Source: a virus. Taken from it: 38,032 nt of DNA. This document shows, one piece after another, positions 2,205 to 37,614 of this stretch. Under the pieces are notes generated by a model. The model searched no databases and was not told the DNA's origin. It was given only the letters and a program-made list of their open reading frames with translations. Location: the IMG/VR virus record IMGVR_UViG_3300031825_000048, positions 1-38,032 of that record; one strand, given 5' to 3'. The position numbers and the translations under genes were made by a program. Within the stretch, counting starts at the first letter, position 1; every line of letters starts with the position of its first letter.

Positions 2205-2852
2205 TCAGAACGTCACCCGCGCCCCGACGAGGGGCGTGAAGGTCTGGGGGGCCGTCGTGTACTGGAGAGCGCCGACGAGGCGAATCGGGCCGAACAGGCG
2301 TATTTCTAGGCCGCCTCGCGCCACCATCGTTTGCGCGGCGAACGGATTCACCAGCGCTTCCACATACGGCAGCACCCGCGGGTTCGCGCGGGCGAGCTGC
2401 ACGCGGAACAAGGCGGCGTCCGTGGCGCGCTGTTGGGCGCTGAGCGCGAGCAGGGAATCGCGCTGTGCGACACGGGTCTCACACGTGGTGAGCGCCACGC
2501 GGCACGCGCGGATGGTGGTGTCCGATGCGGTGACGAAGCGCTCGACGAGCAGCGTATCGGTACGGTGGATGAGTACGGAATCCCTGAGCGTTTCGTAGCG
2601 CGTGACTGCGCGCGTGAGGTGGATGGTGTCGGTGATGTACTGGGTATCGGTGCGCGCCGCCTGCCGTGCGTACGCCGCACTGTCTCGTTGGAGCTTCGCG
2701 ACGCGCTCTTTCAGGGCGCCCTCGCGCTCACTGGCGCCCCGGTCCCGCCAGACCGCGAACGCGATCAGCGCAACGCCCGCGATGCCGATGCCCACGGCCC
2801 GCACGTACGGCCACGCGGCCACGCGGCGGAGCAGGGCGGGGAGCGGGGTCAC
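2205..2852 (-). CDS. Spanin-like: TM, coiled coil, OMP-like C-terminus
   Basis: A 215-residue protein. The start is GTG 2852, because it overlaps the previous stop as GTGA, the junction style used throughout this phage. One inner-membrane helix lies at residues 17-35 (VGIGIAGVALIAFAVW). Residues about 40-160 are a charged, heptad-like helical region (EGALKERVAKLQRDSAAYA and on). The last ~38 residues (GLEIRLFGPIRLVGALQY, then TPLVGARVTF) alternate polar and hydrophobic residues and end in Phe, like the final beta-hairpin and beta-signal of an outer-membrane barrel protein. Its place just after the endolysin genes suggests a spanin that links the inner and outer membranes. Known spanins use a lipoprotein partner or lipobox; neither is seen here. 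Gene function is inferred from architecture and position only. Confidence 0.72.
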   Translation of the reverse strand: MTPLPALLRRVAAWPYVRAVGIGIAGVALIAFAVWRDRGASEREGALKERVAKLQRDSAAYARQAARTDTQYITDTIHLTRAVTRYETLRDSVLIHRTDTLLVERFVTASDTTIRACRVALTTCETRVAQRDSLLALSAQQRATDAALFRVQLARANPRVLPYVEALVNPFAAQTMVARGGLEIRLFGPIRLVGALQYTTAPQTFTPLVGARVTF

Positions 2853-3355
2853 GGGGAGATGGAGAACGTCTGTGTCGGCAGCGACATCGATGTGCTGCCG
2901 CTCGATGTCCACACGTAGGCCCGCGGCCGATTCACGTACTCGTACGTCTCGCGGTCAAGCGTTAACAGGTCGGCGCGATAGTGGAGTCCGATTTCGTTGG
3001 GGGCGCCAGAGTCCGGCGCGAGATACGAGAAGTTGACGACATGACGCTCGATGAAGTCGCCAACCGCGTTATGTATGCGCGTTGCGCAGTTGAGCGGCCA
3101 GTATGGCCATTCCCGGTCGAACGCGAGATGACAGCCGTATGCCTGTTCAAAGGCAAACAGCGGCATCCCGACCGTCACCCACAGCGGCCACGCCCACCAC
3201 GGCGCTTTGCAGTACCCGTGTTTCGCGTCGCGTTCAGCGCGTTCGTGCCACGGCGCGTACATGGCCCACGTCGAGCGGACGGACATCCATCCGCTCGCGA
3301 AGCAGCATCGCAGCACAAACCAGATCGAACGCGAGCGCCATTCGTTGTCGGTCAT
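2849..3355 (-). CDS. Membrane-associated hypothetical protein, 168 aa
   Basis: A 168-residue Trp-rich protein, ATGA-coupled to the metallopeptidase-like gene before it and GTGA-coupled to the spanin-like gene after it. A membrane segment is likely at about residues 53-70 (WWAWPLWVTVGMPLFAFE), and a weaker amphipathic aromatic stretch lies at 11-35. The C-terminal part holds HYRADLLTLDRETYEYVNRP and ends in a Ser/Thr-rich tail. No family is recognised. The position inside the lysis block suggests a role at the envelope, but that is inference. Confidence 0.7.
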   Translation of the reverse strand: MTDNEWRSRSIWFVLRCCFASGWMSVRSTWAMYAPWHERAERDAKHGYCKAPWWAWPLWVTVGMPLFAFEQAYGCHLAFDREWPYWPLNCATRIHNAVGDFIERHVVNFSYLAPDSGAPNEIGLHYRADLLTLDRETYEYVNRPRAYVWTSSGSTSMSLPTQTFSISP

Positions 3356-3753
3356 CGGACTGAGAGAGAAGGGAACTGCTCTGCACTCATGGTCGCGAAC
3401 TTCCGCGCCACCACTTCGACGGGAGCGTTGCGGTAGCCGTATCGCGCGTACTGGTACAGGCACTGCGCGACGGCCACGGGAATCGACAGCCGGTGCATGT
3501 CGAGCGAATGGGAGAACTCGTGTGCGCGCGATTCGCTCGTGATCTCGTGGCCCCGCACGAAGCAGTGGCGGCCGAGCGTCAGCTTCCAGTTGCCGAGCGG
3601 GTTGTCGGACATGCGCGCGACGAGCCGACCGATCCACGACCCGAAGTGGTACGTGATGTCGCCCGGCTCAGGCGCGCCCCGGAGCCACGCGAGCGTGCGG
3701 CCGGCGAGGTAGAGCACGGTGAGGGTGAGGAGGGCGATGACGAGTGTGGTCAT
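3352..3753 (-). CDS. Membrane-anchored HExxH metallopeptidase-like
   Basis: A 133-residue protein, ATGA-coupled to the endolysin before it. Residues 3-26 are an N-terminal transmembrane helix (LVIALLTLTVLYLAGRTLAW). The zinc site HEFSH lies at residues 78-82, preceded by a GHEI strand (69-72), and a likely third ligand, Glu113, lies in the GYRNAPVEVVAR segment. The layout GH(E/V)I, HExxH, ~30 residues, GYRxxPxExxAR matches a known group of minimal zinc-peptidase-like proteins; no family name is asserted. If active, it would cut an envelope protein or peptide on one side of the inner membrane. It sits directly between the endolysin and a membrane protein, so a lysis or superinfection-exclusion role is possible. 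Confidence 0.75.
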   Translation of the reverse strand: MTTLVIALLTLTVLYLAGRTLAWLRGAPEPGDITYHFGSWIGRLVARMSDNPLGNWKLTLGRHCFVRGHEITSESRAHEFSHSLDMHRLSIPVAVAQCLYQYARYGYRNAPVEVVARKFATMSAEQFPSLSVR

Positions 3754-4238
3754 AGCGCACCACACACGCGCCACAGTTCCACGATCCCTTCCTCTTTGTA
3801 GAGTCGGATCGCTTCATCGGACGGCGACGGCTTCACGGTCCCGAACTGCCAGTGCGGCCAGTCCTTGAACGAGTGCCAGTCGCCGCCCCAGTCGAGCCCG
3901 GCCGCCTTCCCGGCCTCCACCACCACGCCGCGCCAGTCCTGCGCGCCCTGATCTTCGGCATCCCACGGCGCCCACCCGCGCGTCGGGTGGATCACGTCAA
4001 CAGCGAGCCCGTAGAAGTGCCACGTGCGCCAGCCGTCGTTTGCCTTGCTCACACCTAACGCGTGGTACATCCGCGCCAGCCGGTGCGAGCGCATGGTCTC
4101 GTAGACCGTGGCGACGTAGCCCTTCGTCGCGGCGCGGTTGAGCATGTCGCGCACGCGGTCCTCCATCTTCGGCGCGAGCAACCGCAGGTCCGCGTTGACG
4201 AGCTTCCGCGCGTCAGCGTCCGTGACGGCGAGGGCCAT
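3750..4238 (-). CDS. Endolysin, M15 (VanY-like) L-Ala-D-Glu/D,D-peptidase
   Basis: A 162-residue single-domain peptidoglycan hydrolase. Zinc ligands are visible: H74 and D81 in WHFYGLAVDV (H-x6-D) and H129 in DWPHWQ, with D126 close by, the typical M15 signature. The SHRLARMYHALGVSKAND segment is typical of phage M15_4 endolysins. There is no signal peptide or TM, so it needs a holin to reach the wall. The next gene upstream is holin-like (stop and start share one base, TGATG); the next gene downstream is a metallopeptidase-like gene (ATGA overlap). Family call is firm; which peptide bond is cut is not determined. Confidence 0.92.
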   Translation of the reverse strand: MALAVTDADARKLVNADLRLLAPKMEDRVRDMLNRAATKGYVATVYETMRSHRLARMYHALGVSKANDGWRTWHFYGLAVDVIHPTRGWAPWDAEDQGAQDWRGVVVEAGKAAGLDWGGDWHSFKDWPHWQFGTVKPSPSDEAIRLYKEEGIVELWRVCGAL

Positions 4239-4537
4239 CAGAGCACGCCACGGTCAGGGACACCGAGGTCGGGGCGCGGGGTTGGCGCCCCCGGCGGCGG
4301 CTCCTCTTGCCCGCTCGCCGGCATCTCGCGCCACTTCTGGACTTTCTGGTACGTCGAGACGCCGGAGAGCGCGAGCGACGCGCCCAAGAGCATCGCGAGC
4401 ACACCTTCCGCGATGTTGTCCTGCTTCCCGGCCACCATCATCCCGAGCGGGACGAGGATCACCAGCGTCGACAACGCCATCCCGAGCGCGATTTGCGCGT
4501 TCGTGGTCGGGAAGTCCTCCAGCCATTTCCAGTTCAT
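4238..4537 (-). CDS. Putative holin, two TM helices
   Basis: A 99-residue protein with two predicted membrane helices at about residues 17-36 (ALGMALSTLVILVPLGMMVA) and 43-62, and a charged, Pro-rich C-terminal tail. Size, topology and position directly upstream of the M15 endolysin fit a class II-type holin. It is ATGA-coupled to the TM/coiled-coil gene before it. There is no sequence proof of pore formation; it could also be an antiholin, with the neighbouring 154-aa TM protein as the partner. Confidence 0.75.
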   Translation of the reverse strand: MNWKWLEDFPTTNAQIALGMALSTLVILVPLGMMVAGKQDNIAEGVLAMLLGASLALSGVSTYQKVQKWREMPASGQEEPPPGAPTPRPDLGVPDRGVL

Positions 4538-4998
4538 CCCGGCTCCTCGGTGAGTGGTGGGTCATCACTGCGCCGCCCCTTCCGTCTCCGCTCCTCCCCC
4601 TGCCAGCCGCCACCTTGCAGCGCGCCCCGGATTTCCCCGATGTCTTCCCCGTGGTCGCGGATATCCTGGTGCAGGGCCTGGAGCGTCGAGTCGAGCCGCT
4701 TGACGGCGGTGGTCATCTCCGACACGACCCCGCTCATCCGGGGGATCTCCCGGAGCGCGATGCCGTGCGCTTCGACGGCGGATTGCAGCATCACGAGGGT
4801 GTCGCGGTGCGCCTCCGCGAGCGCGGTGGTGGCGTGCATGGTGGTCAGTTCATCCCGGAGCGCCATCCCGACGAGGCGCTGGAAGGTCCACCACAGGGGC
4901 CAGCGGATGAGGGCGTAGAGAAAGCCGAGCACGACGATGATCCCGCCGGCAATCTCCAGTTGGTCCTTCGTCGGCACGGGCTGTCCGCCGCTCTGCAC
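4534..4998 (-). CDS. TM plus coiled-coil protein in lysis cassette
   Basis: A 154-residue protein, GTG start at 4998 (TAG of a 10-codon mini-ORF lies just upstream). One membrane helix at about residues 16-37 (EIAGGIIVVLGFLYALIRWP) is followed by a long charged helical region (about 45-120) and a very basic/acidic tail. This is the shape of many phage proteins annotated as holin-associated or i-spanin-like. It is the first gene of the lysis block and overlaps the holin-like gene by ATGA. Alternatives: a second holin/antiholin, or a membrane tether for lysis timing. Confidence 0.7.
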   Translation of the reverse strand: MQSGGQPVPTKDQLEIAGGIIVVLGFLYALIRWPLWWTFQRLVGMALRDELTTMHATTALAEAHRDTLVMLQSAVEAHGIALREIPRMSGVVSEMTTAVKRLDSTLQALHQDIRDHGEDIGEIRGALQGGGWQGEERRRKGRRSDDPPLTEEPG

Positions 4999-5144: not shown

Positions 5145-5235
5145 TTAGGAAAATACAGGGATTCACGGGCTGGCGCTAATGGTTTCTGCGCCCCTGCTGG
5201 ACAACCGGCGCGCTCTACCCGCATCATCGCCCCGC

Positions 5236-5481
5236 ATGGGACTCCTCATCCTGTTCATCGCGTGCGGCATCATGGCGATCATCGGCGCCCAGATGCTCGA
5301 GAAGCACGGGCGGGCCGGCACGGGCGCCGTGCTCGGGTTCCTCTTGGGACCGATCGGCATCCTGATCGCGTTCCTGATGGCCGAAGGGCACGCGAGGGAG
5401 AAGCGGGAGCGAGAGGAGCGGGAGCGGGACCGGGCGGCGTGGGCGGCGGTGCTGGCGAAGCGGGAGCCGCCGGAGCGATAG
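5236..5481 (+). CDS. Small membrane protein, two TM
   Basis: First gene of the plus-strand cassette; 81 residues from ATG 5236 (an ATG at 5179 would add 19 non-hydrophobic residues and is less likely). Two membrane helices: residues 2-20 (GLLILFIACGIMAIIGAQM) and about 27-48 (AVLGFLLGPIGILIAFL), followed by a highly charged basic/acidic tail (EKREREERERDRAAW). It resembles small bacterial membrane proteins with a Gly-rich second helix, often paired with zinc-ribbon membrane proteins. No Shine-Dalgarno is obvious. Function unknown. Confidence 0.7.
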   Translation: MGLLILFIACGIMAIIGAQMLEKHGRAGTGAVLGFLLGPIGILIAFLMAEGHAREKREREERERDRAAWAAVLAKREPPER

Positions 5482-5486
5482 CCCCC

Positions 5487-5675
5487 ATGCCCCTCAAACC
5501 CTGCCGCGAGTGCCGGAAAGAGGTGAGCACGCAAGCCCGGACGTGCCCGCAGTGCGGGGCGCAATGGCCGACCGAGAAGGCGAGTCGCGTGGAAAGCGCC
5601 AATGCCGTCCGCCAGTTCGCGGTCATCGTGTTCCTTGCCATCGCGCTCGCGTATCTGCTGATGGCGGTCTGGTAA
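5487..5675 (+). CDS. Zinc-ribbon membrane protein, 62 aa
   Basis: ATG 5487, 5 nt after the previous stop. An N-terminal zinc ribbon with CREC (6-9) and CPQC (20-23) is followed by a polar linker and one C-terminal membrane helix (residues 42-61, FAVIVFLAIALAYLLMAV). This tail-anchored 'zinc_ribbon plus TM' layout is common in bacterial chromosomes and rare in phage structural regions, which hints at a host origin. The cytoplasmic ribbon could bind a partner protein at the membrane. Confidence 0.78.
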   Translation: MPLKPCRECRKEVSTQARTCPQCGAQWPTEKASRVESANAVRQFAVIVFLAIALAYLLMAVW

Positions 5676-5758
5676 CCCCGCGTGCGGCGGGTCACTGGCG
5701 GGGCCTCGTAGTTGCCCGAGTGGCCGGTGTCGGCCCCGTGTGCTATCATCGGCGGCCT

Positions 5759-6634
5759 ATGCGTTCCCGCATCGTCCAGGCCCTGCTCGTCGTTGTGGCG
5801 CTCGCCGGGCTGCTGATCCCACGCGCGGCGAACCGCGCGGACCAACTGCTGATCGCGGCGCCACTGGCGATTGCGGCCGTCTGGCAGCGCTACGACCGCC
5901 GCTTCCTGCTGTGGTCTCTGTACGCGCTCGGGTACGTGCTGTTCGTCACCACGCGCGGCTACGCCCACACGCTCGGGATGCCGGTCCACTGGGACTACGT
6001 GATCGCGGTGGGCCGCGCGATCGGCTGGGGCGAACTGCCGACGCACCGGCTCCAGCGGTGGCTCTACCGGCCGGGCGAGCCCGGACTGCACGACTACTTC
6101 TCGGTGATCGTGCACGGCTCGTTTTTCTTCCTCCAAACCGCGCTCGCCGCCGTGCTCTGGTACGTGCGCGCCCCCCACTGGCCGCGGTACATCAAAGCGT
6201 CGGTGATGACGTGGGCGGTGAGTCTCGCGCTCATCATTCTGGTGCCGACCGCGCCGCCGTGGATGGCCGGGAGCGCGGGCCGGATCGCGCCCGTCTCGCG
6301 CGTCCTCTACGATCTGATCACCCACACCGCGCCGCGCGTGTACGAGTACGGTGTGGGGATCGCCGGAGACAACCCGGTCGCCGCGATGCCGTCGCTGCAC
6401 TTCGCGGGTGCGCTCCTCGTCAGCCTCGGTCTCTGGCACTGGCACTGGACCGCGCGACTGCCGGCCGTTCTCTACTCCGCGTGGATGGCGTTCGCGCTTG
6501 TGTATCTGGGCGAGCATTACGTGGCTGACCTGCTGGTCGCGGGACTCATCGTGGCGGGTGCGTGGACGGCGGCCGGTCGCGAGCGCTGGCCCCAATGGCT
6601 GCGCGGCGCGTCATTGCCACCCGCCCCACGCTGA
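5759..6634 (+). CDS. PAP2_3-type lipid phosphatase/transferase, membrane
   Basis: A 291-residue polytopic membrane protein with about six hydrophobic helices. PAP2 superfamily motifs are present in order: PTAPPWM (164-170), AAMPSLHFA (208-216, catalytic-type Ser/His) and YLGEHYVADLL (249-259, His253 nucleophile-type and Asp257). This pattern matches the PAP2_3 / inositol-phosphoceramide-synthase-like branch, which moves or removes phosphate head groups on lipids. In a phage it could change host phospholipids, recycle or block undecaprenyl-phosphate lipids, or exclude other phages. It is the largest gene of the plus-strand cassette; a small GC hairpin precedes it (5722-5735). Activity and substrate are not provable from sequence. 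Confidence 0.85.
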   Translation: MRSRIVQALLVVVALAGLLIPRAANRADQLLIAAPLAIAAVWQRYDRRFLLWSLYALGYVLFVTTRGYAHTLGMPVHWDYVIAVGRAIGWGELPTHRLQRWLYRPGEPGLHDYFSVIVHGSFFFLQTALAAVLWYVRAPHWPRYIKASVMTWAVSLALIILVPTAPPWMAGSAGRIAPVSRVLYDLITHTAPRVYEYGVGIAGDNPVAAMPSLHFAGALLVSLGLWHWHWTARLPAVLYSAWMAFALVYLGEHYVADLLVAGLIVAGAWTAAGRERWPQWLRGASLPPAPR

Positions 6635-23156: not shown

Positions 23157-24521
23157 TTAGGCGTGCGTTCCGTTGCCGTTCATGCGCTCGGCGATGGCGT
23201 CAGGGATGTCATCGGCGGAGTCCTCCGGGGGCGGTGCCACTGACTCCGGCACTGGATCGCCCTGCTCGTCCACGACCGCCGAGGCGGTCGGGCGTAAGTA
23301 CACTTTCTGTGTTTCATCAACCTCCAGCCCGAGCGCGGCCTGTGCCCGATCCACGCGCATCACGCCGGCCGCCACGCGCTTGAGAATGCGATCCTCGCGC
23401 GCCGCCTCATCCTCGGGGAACATGGAGACGTCCGACGTATCGAAGCGGATGCGGAATCTCCGTGTCTGGGACACGAAGTCGGGGAGCAGTTGCGCGGTCG
23501 CCTGCTTCCCCATCGACGTTTGCATCGGCGTCAGGCACTGGACCCACGCCAATCGGCGGAGCTCACGCATCGTCGCGCCGACCTTCGTGGACTGGAGACC
23601 GGAACCGAACCCAACGACGGCGGCAGGAATCCCGAGCACCGCGCACACCCGCTCCTCCGCAATGTCGCGGAGGTTCCCGAGCATCAGCTTGTTGGGATCG
23701 AAACCGAATTGCGTGACTTCCGTGGGGATCTTCGTGACGACGGGTTTGCCGCGTCGATCGCCAGTGAATGCATTGTCCCAATAGTTCCGCATCTCCTTCA
23801 CGGCATCGTCGTTCGGCTTGAACCCCTCCACCTTCGGCGAGATCAAGAGGCCCGGCACCCCCATGTTGCGGAGGATCACCTCGGAGAACTGGGACGCCTG
23901 ATCGTCGGTGCAGATTTCGCGGATCAGCGAACGGAGCGGCGAGAGGCCGAGGCGCGGATTCTCCGGGTCGAGGCCGAACCGGAAGTGGACGATATCACGC
24001 GGCGCGATCTGCTCGGGTTGGCCGACCCCACTCCGGTACTCGTAATGCGAGATGAACTGTGATCCGTCCTGTGGCCCTCTCGGGCCGATCAGCCAGTGCG
24101 GGACATACCAGAGTTGCACGACGGTCCCGAACGCATTCCGGATTTTCCGCCAGTAGCCGTTGCCGCCTAGGACGTAGGAGACGCACGTCGCTTTCCAGAG
24201 CGCGTCACCGTCGTACGCTTCGTTGGGCCGGTCAATCAGGACTTCCGCGTCGTGGTCCGTTACCCATTCCCAGAGCCGCGGATCGACCCGCCGTTCCACC
24301 CGCGCCACGGCCTCCGTGAAGGTCCGCATGATCCACATCACCGGGGCCATCACGACGTTCGACGCAAGCCCGGTGACGGAACTGCCTAACCATTTCGGGG
24401 CGTTCTCAACGGGATAAAAGTTCTCCTCAATGTGCTGAATCGTGAGGGACTTCTGTGCGAATCCGTCCGAAACCGGTCCGGAGTACACAATTCTGTTGGC
24501 GACCGCGAACGGGTTAGCCAT
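23157..24521 (-). CDS. Portal protein, HK97 family
   Basis: 454 residues. HK97-type portal features: PKWLGSSVTGLASNVVMAPV start region, YVLGGNGYWRKIRN, DIVHFRFGLDPENPRLGLSP, AEERVCAVLGIPAAVVGFGS, ELRRLAWVQCLTPM and a wing/clip with VDRAQAALGLEVDETQ. The acidic C-terminal tail is typical. It starts with an 8-nt overlap with the small TM gene before it. It forms the 12-mer DNA gate and docks the terminase. Confidence 0.95.
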   Translation of the reverse strand: MANPFAVANRIVYSGPVSDGFAQKSLTIQHIEENFYPVENAPKWLGSSVTGLASNVVMAPVMWIMRTFTEAVARVERRVDPRLWEWVTDHDAEVLIDRPNEAYDGDALWKATCVSYVLGGNGYWRKIRNAFGTVVQLWYVPHWLIGPRGPQDGSQFISHYEYRSGVGQPEQIAPRDIVHFRFGLDPENPRLGLSPLRSLIREICTDDQASQFSEVILRNMGVPGLLISPKVEGFKPNDDAVKEMRNYWDNAFTGDRRGKPVVTKIPTEVTQFGFDPNKLMLGNLRDIAEERVCAVLGIPAAVVGFGSGLQSTKVGATMRELRRLAWVQCLTPMQTSMGKQATAQLLPDFVSQTRRFRIRFDTSDVSMFPEDEAAREDRILKRVAAGVMRVDRAQAALGLEVDETQKVYLRPTASAVVDEQGDPVPESVAPPPEDSADDIPDAIAERMNGNGTHA

Positions 24522-24810
24522 TGCGTGTCCGCGTTAGGCCGTAGAGTCCGTAGCTCGCGACCGTCCAGAGCATCCGCCATCCGCCGCACGAGAGGAGCAG
24601 GAGCCCGCCCGACAAGGGCCACACCTTCCACGTCGTGAACAGCACGAGCCCCCAGGTCACCAGCGCCCACCCGCCAAGCATCGCGGCAGTCAAGAGGATT
24701 TCGGCGCGCGCGCGAACGACCGCCCGCGCGATGAGCCAGATGATCGTCAGGACCGCCCGCCGTCGCCCGCCGGTCTCGGCCGCGGGCTCCACATTCACCG
24801 CCGCGCTCAC
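24514..24810 (-). CDS. Two-TM protein inserted between terminase and portal
   Basis: 98 residues, GTG 24810 overlapping the large terminase stop (GTGA). Two hydrophobic segments at about residues 20-55 and 58-75 (AEILLTAAMLGGWALVTWG; LLLLSCGGWRML) with many Trp. A membrane protein in the packaging module is unexpected. It could be a small membrane moron, an exclusion factor or a holin-like protein; no family recognised. Confidence 0.62.
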   Translation of the reverse strand: MSAAVNVEPAAETGGRRRAVLTIIWLIARAVVRARAEILLTAAMLGGWALVTWGLVLFTTWKVWPLSGGLLLLSCGGWRMLWTVASYGLYGLTRTRNG

Positions 24811-26573
24811 GCGAGCCACCCGGAATCGGCCGGCGGCGGCTCGAACAGCGCACGCGACAGGGCCATGATCAGCGCCACCGCACCGTCGATCTTCTGGTTC
24901 GCGGTCTGCTTGTTTGGGTAGACGTTGTCCTTTTTGTCGACGTGCGCGACCACGTTCGACACCATCCACTCGAGCACCGGGTCACCGTCATGGTGGAACC
25001 GTCCCTCGCGCACCAGCTTCTCGAGCGTCTTCATGGGCTCGGAAAAGTTCTTGACCGTGGCCCCGACCTCGATCATCGGGAACCCTTCCGAAAGGAGCTC
25101 CGTCGCGAACTTCGTCGCCTGGAACGGGTCGTACGCCACGGCGCGAATCGCAAACTCGCTCTTCAATTCGCGAAGCTCGTCCTGGATCAGGTTCTGGTCG
25201 ATCGTGTTCCCGTCCGTGGCCACGAGGCGGCCAGACGCTTCCCACCCTTGGTACTGGCTGTTGTCCGACTCCTCGATGACTTCCTCGGGCGCGTAGAACC
25301 GGCCGAACGCGTAGTAATGCACCACGCCGTCCACCAGCCGGTGGAAGAGCTGCACGCGCGCCGCGATGTCGATGTTGCTCGCGAGGTCGAACGCGATGAA
25401 CGACGGGTCGCCCGCGAACTGCGACGGCGTCAGGGTGCGATCCGCGCACCGCTCCCACGCCGCCATGTCCATCCACGGGCTGTCGGCGTTGACCCAGACG
25501 TTGAGATGCTTGGTCAGGAAGTTCGGCTTCGCCGATGGGAGCTGCTGCGCCTTCCGACACTTCCGCTCGAGGTCGTCGAGCTTGACGCTCACCCCGAGGT
25601 TCGGGTTCGCCTTCGCCCACTCGCGCGGGTCGGCCCACGCCTCTTCGTCGTCGATCGTGAACACGATCCCGAAGAACGTCTCGTCGTCGGTGTGCGCCCC
25701 GTCGGCGCGGAAGCCGAATCGCTCGCAGAGCGCCTGGTGCCGCAACAGCACGGACGTCAGGATCTGCGTGACGTAGGTCCGCACCTCGTAGCAGATGCCC
25801 GATCGGTTCGAGCCCGCCGTGGTGATCGTCCACAGGAGCGACTGGTCTCGGGCGCCCGATGCGGTCTCGAGCACGTCCCACACGCCCCGCGTCTTGTGCG
25901 CGTGGAGCTCGTCCACCGAGGAAAAGTGCGGGTTGAGACCGTCCAGCGAGTCGTCGTCCGCCGACAGGGCCTTGAACAGGGAATCCGACGCAGGCGCCGT
26001 GAGGCTGTGGGCGTTGACCTCAACCCCGAAGCGCTCACAGTACCCCGGCGTGCGGCGCGCCATCGCGCGGGCCACGTCGAAGACGATCTTCGCCTGGTCG
26101 CGCGTCGTGGCGGCCGAGTAGCATTCGGCCCCCTCCTCACCGTCCGGCGCCAGCATGTAGAGCGCGGTCCCGGCAGTCATCGTGGATTTTGCGTTCTTTC
26201 GCGCGACCTCCTTGTACGACGTGCGGAACCGGCGCGCCCCATCCTTCTCCCGCATCGCTTCGTCGGCGTGGCCCGCGGTGGCCCACACCCACGAGAACAC
26301 GGTCATGAAGATGAAGATCTGCCACGGCTCGAGGCGGATCGTCCGCGTCTTCCACCGGCCTTTGATGTGCGGGAGCAGTTCGATCGTGCGGCACACCTTC
26401 GTGCCGCGCTCCGGCTCGTACCGGAACGGGAAGCCGGGCGTCTCGCTGCGCGCCAAGTCGTCGAGCTGGCGCTGGCACGCCGCGATGACCCACTTGCACG
26501 CGACCTGCACCCCGCTCACCACGTCATGCGCGTACTGCAGCGCGATCGCGGCGTAGTCGCGGCGCTCACCCAT
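24807..26573 (-). CDS. terL: Terminase large subunit
   Basis: 588 residues. ATPase part: KEVARKNAKST at about 121-131 (Walker A of the Terminase_1 type), SVDELHAH at about 219-226 (Walker B plus catalytic Glu) and a SLLWTITTAG coupling motif. Nuclease part: FIAFDLASN, AVAYDPFQATKFA and NQKIDGAVALIMA supply the acidic residues. It overlaps the small subunit by 8 nt. It pumps and cuts phage DNA at the portal. Confidence 0.96.
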   Translation of the reverse strand: MGERRDYAAIALQYAHDVVSGVQVACKWVIAACQRQLDDLARSETPGFPFRYEPERGTKVCRTIELLPHIKGRWKTRTIRLEPWQIFIFMTVFSWVWATAGHADEAMREKDGARRFRTSYKEVARKNAKSTMTAGTALYMLAPDGEEGAECYSAATTRDQAKIVFDVARAMARRTPGYCERFGVEVNAHSLTAPASDSLFKALSADDDSLDGLNPHFSSVDELHAHKTRGVWDVLETASGARDQSLLWTITTAGSNRSGICYEVRTYVTQILTSVLLRHQALCERFGFRADGAHTDDETFFGIVFTIDDEEAWADPREWAKANPNLGVSVKLDDLERKCRKAQQLPSAKPNFLTKHLNVWVNADSPWMDMAAWERCADRTLTPSQFAGDPSFIAFDLASNIDIAARVQLFHRLVDGVVHYYAFGRFYAPEEVIEESDNSQYQGWEASGRLVATDGNTIDQNLIQDELRELKSEFAIRAVAYDPFQATKFATELLSEGFPMIEVGATVKNFSEPMKTLEKLVREGRFHHDGDPVLEWMVSNVVAHVDKKDNVYPNKQTANQKIDGAVALIMALSRALFEPPPADSGWLA

Positions 26574-37420: not shown

Positions 37421-37614
37421 GCGGCCTTCCGGTGTGCGATGTGGAGCAACAGGTCGATCACCGGCCGCGCCGAACAAGCGCAGTCGGTCGGGGTCAGGCG
37501 CGGCCAATAGGGGCACTCCGGGTCGTGCCGCAGCCACCGCGCTTGTCCGCGGGCCACGTCGGCGGACATGCGGGCGATGATGGCGCCGATGTGCTCGAAG
37601 CCGGGGGCCGTCAT
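37417..37614 (-). CDS. Small Cys/His protein, 65 aa
   Basis: ATG 37614, ATGA overlaps on both sides. RHDPECPYWPRLTPTDCACS holds possible zinc ligands (His, three Cys), followed by a helix ending LLLHIAHRKAA. No family recognised. Confidence 0.6.
   Translation of the reverse strand: MTAPGFEHIGAIIARMSADVARGQARWLRHDPECPYWPRLTPTDCACSARPVIDLLLHIAHRKAA

Follow-up and report, generated by a model that had tools for sequence, protein, structure and literature searches.

A candidate spanin-type lysis protein without a lipobox, encoded downstream of an M15 endolysin in a virus of a likely diderm host

The window analysed here is an entire IMG/VR virus record (IMGVR_UViG_3300031825_000048) of 38,032 bases. 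The candidate spanin gene lies on its minus strand at positions 2205–2852 and encodes 215 amino acids between a GTG start, which shares 4 nt with the stop of the upstream gene, and a TGA stop. The open reading frame, a homologue read in the same frame (L310:7063–7560) and the codon-position GC content together confirm that this is a real gene with the coordinates given in the preliminary description, which had been made from the sequence alone. Since codon-position GC is uniform from start to stop and the frame is unbroken, the C-terminus is not the product of a frameshift.

The gene is part of a late cassette that includes an M15 endolysin (Peptidase_M15_4; 3750–4238, minus strand; Pfam 3.2e-9, PHROG endolysins) located upstream and two genes in between, namely an unannotated gene directly upstream of the candidate (2849–3355, minus) and a gene for a protein with one TM and an HEFSH motif (3352–3774, minus). 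Small TM proteins of the HEFSH type may, on the comparisons made here, be a recurring cassette gene. In Riemerella phage RAP44, an annotated protease with an HEKIH motif adjoins the holin (L294:2295–2627). Two further minus-strand genes are found at 4238–4537, encoding a small two-TM membrane protein that is a holin candidate from its sequence and has only a sub-threshold DUF4231 match, and at 4534–4998, encoding a TM-plus-coil protein that is a candidate holin or spanin partner, likewise from its sequence, and that exhibits no significant similarity to the TM-coil genes of other cassettes. Downstream of the candidate spanin gene follow an 83-aa gene (1870–2121) and a minus-strand gene for an exported protein with a signal peptide and a beta-helix-like sequence (1–1797), which runs off the record end. 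A plus-strand block at 5179–6634, oriented against the late genes, encodes a two-TM protein, a zinc-ribbon protein and a PAP2-like membrane phosphatase, and probably consists of moron genes.

Hydropathy analysis reveals a single hydrophobic segment in the protein, corresponding to a putative transmembrane helix at residues 16–35 (2748–2807, minus), with the best 19-residue stretch at 17–35 (Kyte-Doolittle mean 2.07) and a modelled helix at 15–36 of low confidence. The N-terminal TM helix reported earlier is therefore present, as is the reported absence of a lipobox and of a C-terminal TM, the only hydrophobic segment being the N-terminal one. The following residues 36–156 (2385–2747, minus) form a putative periplasmic stalk, Asp-Thr rich at first and then helical, for which the single-sequence AlphaFold model predicts helices at 41–96 and 100–156, with pLDDT up to ~95 at residues 80–120. 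The ~120-residue coiled coil that had been proposed for this region is thus supported in its helical character, although Asp-Thr repeats are abundant in it as well. Within the stalk, a Cys motif, CxxAxxxCExRVAxRD, occupies residues 117–132 (2457–2504, minus), at positions identical to those in the L310 homologue. Because most spanins contain Cys (PMC6139136), this conserved pair was counted in favour of a spanin-type role.

The C-terminal module, residues 157–215 (2208–2384, minus), was characterised by an alternation test and by the frequency of its end motif, and comprises four alternating segments, the last of which ends in PLVGARVTF. The V/A/V/F residues at positions -7/-5/-3/-1, with G at -6, confirm the terminal GARVTF and the hydrophobic spacing described previously. 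The classical beta-signal reads polar-x-G-x-x-hydrophobic-x-aromatic; the G, hydrophobic and aromatic positions are matched by the GARVTF end, and the polar position is Leu (three of four positions). Ends of the type Gxx[hydrophobic]x[FYW] are rare, with 17 cases among the 18,350 ORFs of the collected loci, the motif having been chosen after the sequence was seen. In a test likewise chosen post hoc, the summed score for two-residue alternation over the last 59 residues exceeds that of shuffled sequences (p = 0.02); two stretches from elsewhere in the protein, used as controls, give p = 0.90 and 0.44. As for the ~38-residue last hairpin of a barrel that had been suggested, the alternation is indeed modestly non-random, but it fits better to ~58 residues in four segments. 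Trimeric autotransporter or TolC barrels contain four strands per subunit, and the module resembles these barrels and the ends of BAM-substrate outer-membrane proteins (OMPs) in its four alternating segments and its Gxx-hydrophobic-x-aromatic end; in contrast to OMP barrels, the protein has no Pfam match, a TM that is likely uncleaved, and no structural support. Overall, the resemblance to outer-membrane strands, read from sequence, is suggestive and not strong. The AlphaFold model loses all confidence after residue 166, with pLDDT <50 in the module, a separate model of residues 150–215 gives pLDDT ~49 and no fold, and a Foldseek search against BFVD returned no match at E≤0.001. The earlier proposal that the C-terminus enters the outer membrane is so far without support, given these pLDDT values and an L310 homologue that lacks the module, and the segments may instead form a soluble domain.

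This homologue was recovered by scanning the viral collection with a degenerate DNA pattern for C-x3-h-x2-C-E-x-R-h-A-x-R-D, which yielded a single locus, L310. The gene at L310:7063–7560 encodes a 165-aa protein with a TM, an Asp-Thr stalk and the Cys motif, and matches the candidate spanin with an HMM E of 1.8e-10 and a BLASTP E of 2e-10. To allow for the choice of the locus by its motif, the two proteins were also compared with the motif excluded, giving a score of 79, where shuffled sequences reached at most 64 and 67 (2000 trials each); with the TM removed, the score is 74 against 59 for shuffles. The homology lies in the stalk, residues 36–156 of the candidate. The search for homologues that the preliminary description had called for has therefore produced one clear relative, but one without the C-terminal module: the two C-terminal ends score no better than shuffles, the L310 protein having an unrelated tail of 25 residues in this place, so that the module is not conserved across the family. 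In the L310 phage, the gene follows small membrane genes and overlaps an ORF for an Amidase_2 endolysin at the 3′ end of the latter. This phage is podovirus-like, with T7-type capsid and tail proteins related to those of Pseudomonas, Vibrio, Pelagibacter and Escherichia phages, and its nearest named relatives infect Gram-negatives. None of the other proteins of the window matches the L310 record, the candidate spanin being the sole similarity found. A lone gene common to two unrelated phages and adjacent to the endolysin in one of them has the expected appearance of a lysis module, which supports a spanin-type role.

No further relatives emerged. With the single protein as query, no match was obtained among phages, viral contigs, Pfam (no family at E≤1), PHROGs, NCBIfam and PDB sequences, 91 virus or host records searched with HMMs yielded no credible hit, and neighbour-gene scans based on the endolysin, the 83-aa gene and a tail protein revealed no close relative. 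An architecture scan of 293 loci returned only the gene itself and spurious ORFs, and a weak top score at L118 was rejected as an unrelated ORF, tail-fibre-assembly-like by eye. The candidate spanin likely represents a new family. The nearest phage, L123 (portal 76%), ends before its lysis genes. The packaging genes at 23157–26573 are mosaic, with a terminase 49–56% identical to that of many phages with an unrelated or only distantly related portal, and only 40% identical to that of L123, which is close in portal and capsid. Genomes carrying portal relatives belong mostly to Alphaproteobacteria, from which a diderm host appears likely.

The preliminary description regarded a lipobox o-spanin elsewhere in the genome as evidence against its reading. 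A lipobox scan in all frames, which recovered six of six known o- or u-spanins (lambda Rz1, T7 18.7, P2 LysC and the three u-spanins of RAP44, 11b and phi12:1), found no credible lipoprotein, o-spanin or u-spanin in the window, a result that applies to a record that could be incomplete and in which a partner could have been missed. The candidate at 5179–5481 was rejected because it has two TMs and is encoded on the opposite strand; that at 24514 is a short ORF with a TM, situated between the terminase and portal genes, and the remaining lax matches are short or antisense ORFs. The same scan of the 9-kb lysis region around the L310 homologue also gave no credible lipoprotein.

Among known systems, the i-spanin lambda Rz shares with the candidate an N-terminal TM, a helical periplasmic part with Cys and a nearby endolysin, and differs from it in that the candidate has a C-terminal alternating module and no lipoprotein o-spanin was found for it; no sequence similarity to Rz families was detected. 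The i-spanin features are recognisable, with the N-terminal TM and the lysis-cassette position present and the rest of the protein presumably periplasmic. Like the unimolecular spanins (T1 gp11 and those of Bacteroidetes phages), the candidate could possibly span the periplasm as one protein, but its anchor order is the opposite, without an N-terminal lipobox and without a C-terminal TM. Bacteroides phage B40-8, a relative of B124-14, encodes in its gene 11 a DUF6549 protein (PF20186) that, like the candidate, combines an N-terminal TM with a coil and adjoins the endolysin; in contrast to the candidate, which has no match to this profile, DUF6549 lacks a terminal aromatic strand. N-terminal-TM proteins adjoin the endolysin in both B40-8 and Croceibacter phage P2559S. 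The latter and B124-14 are listed as spanin-less in the main survey (PMC6139136).

Proteins of similar layout occur in the lysis cassettes of Salinibacter phages M1EM-1, M8CR30-2, B2_17 and 11_1, where they follow a TM-coil gene. M1EM-1 gp20, B2_17_28 and the 11_1 ORF at 37575–38270 possess an N-terminal TM, Asp-Thr repeats and C-terminal alternating strands, as the candidate does, whereas their middle domain differs. The M8CR30-2 counterpart is 92% identical to M1EM-1 gp20, and two of the protein ends in this group give p = 0.002 and 0.026 in the alternation test. These proteins are related to each other; membership of the candidate in their family was rejected, as the B2_17 score of 80 with the TM falls to 49, a background value, without it. 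No lipobox protein was found in the 30 kb of M8CR30-2 searched. In M1EM-1, a lipoprotein gene, BamE-like by eye, is convergent with gp20 (L302:19677–20018), so that a partner is possible there. In phage 11_1 and ~180 relatives, the ORF (L298:37575–38270) is not annotated as one gene and two hypothetical genes appear instead.

Taken together, the best-supported reading, to which we assign a probability of about 0.5, is that the gene encodes a spanin-type lysis protein without a lipobox, for which we infer the topology, the outer-membrane contact and the fusion mechanism. The N-terminal helix would reside in the inner membrane in an N-in, C-out orientation, the helical, Asp-Thr-rich stalk with its conserved Cys pair would span the zone of the peptidoglycan, and contact with the outer membrane, or with one of its components, would be made by the C-terminal module. 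After removal of the peptidoglycan by the M15 endolysin, the stalk would cluster and collapse, bringing the membranes together as in known spanins, apparently with no need for a lipoprotein partner. The more specific proposal of a single-protein bridge from the inner membrane to a barrel, with insertion of the C-terminus, is possible but doubtful. Such a spanin would be anchored in reverse relative to T1 gp11, combining an inner-membrane TM with four strands per subunit, oligomerising into a small outer-membrane barrel that makes a lipoprotein unnecessary.

It is rather unlikely that the protein is an ordinary i-spanin, whose C-terminal strands would form a small soluble partner-binding domain and whose lipoprotein partner escaped detection or is encoded beyond the record. 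The N-terminal TM and helical stalk fit the Rz layout, i-spanins with predicted beta segments are known (PMC6139136), and the C-termini of the two homologues differ, as partner-binding ends do; against this, a scan that recovered all its controls detected no credible lipoprotein, either on the late strand or in the 9 kb around the L310 homologue. If the late operon instead encoded here an envelope protein unrelated to lysis, for example an exclusion factor, the position would be coincidental, in agreement with the two genes separating the candidate from the endolysin and with the following genes (1870–2121 and the exported beta-helix protein), which are non-lysis by annotation. This, too, is rather unlikely, given that the L310 homologue overlaps the end of an endolysin ORF although its phage is unrelated and no other common gene was found. 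A cleaved signal peptide, leaving an outer-membrane or periplasmic subunit (an OMP as o-spanin) with the TM-coil protein at 4534–4998 as inner-membrane partner, is very unlikely: AFA at residues 31–33 is a candidate signal peptidase site and the Salinibacter layout-alikes adjoin TM-coil genes, but the hydrophobic stretch of ~19 residues is long for a signal peptide and no clear AxA site is seen by eye in the L310 homologue.

That an OMP might serve as o-spanin has already been proposed as a possibility by Kongari 2018 (PMC6139136); our literature search found no polypeptide joining an OMP-type o-spanin to an inner-membrane anchor. In the main survey, ~13% of phages (91/677) have no recognisable spanin (PMC6139136), and the family described here, together with the Salinibacter layout-alikes, provides concrete candidates for this gap. 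If the C-terminus does insert into the outer membrane, the protein would represent a new way for one polypeptide to link both membranes.
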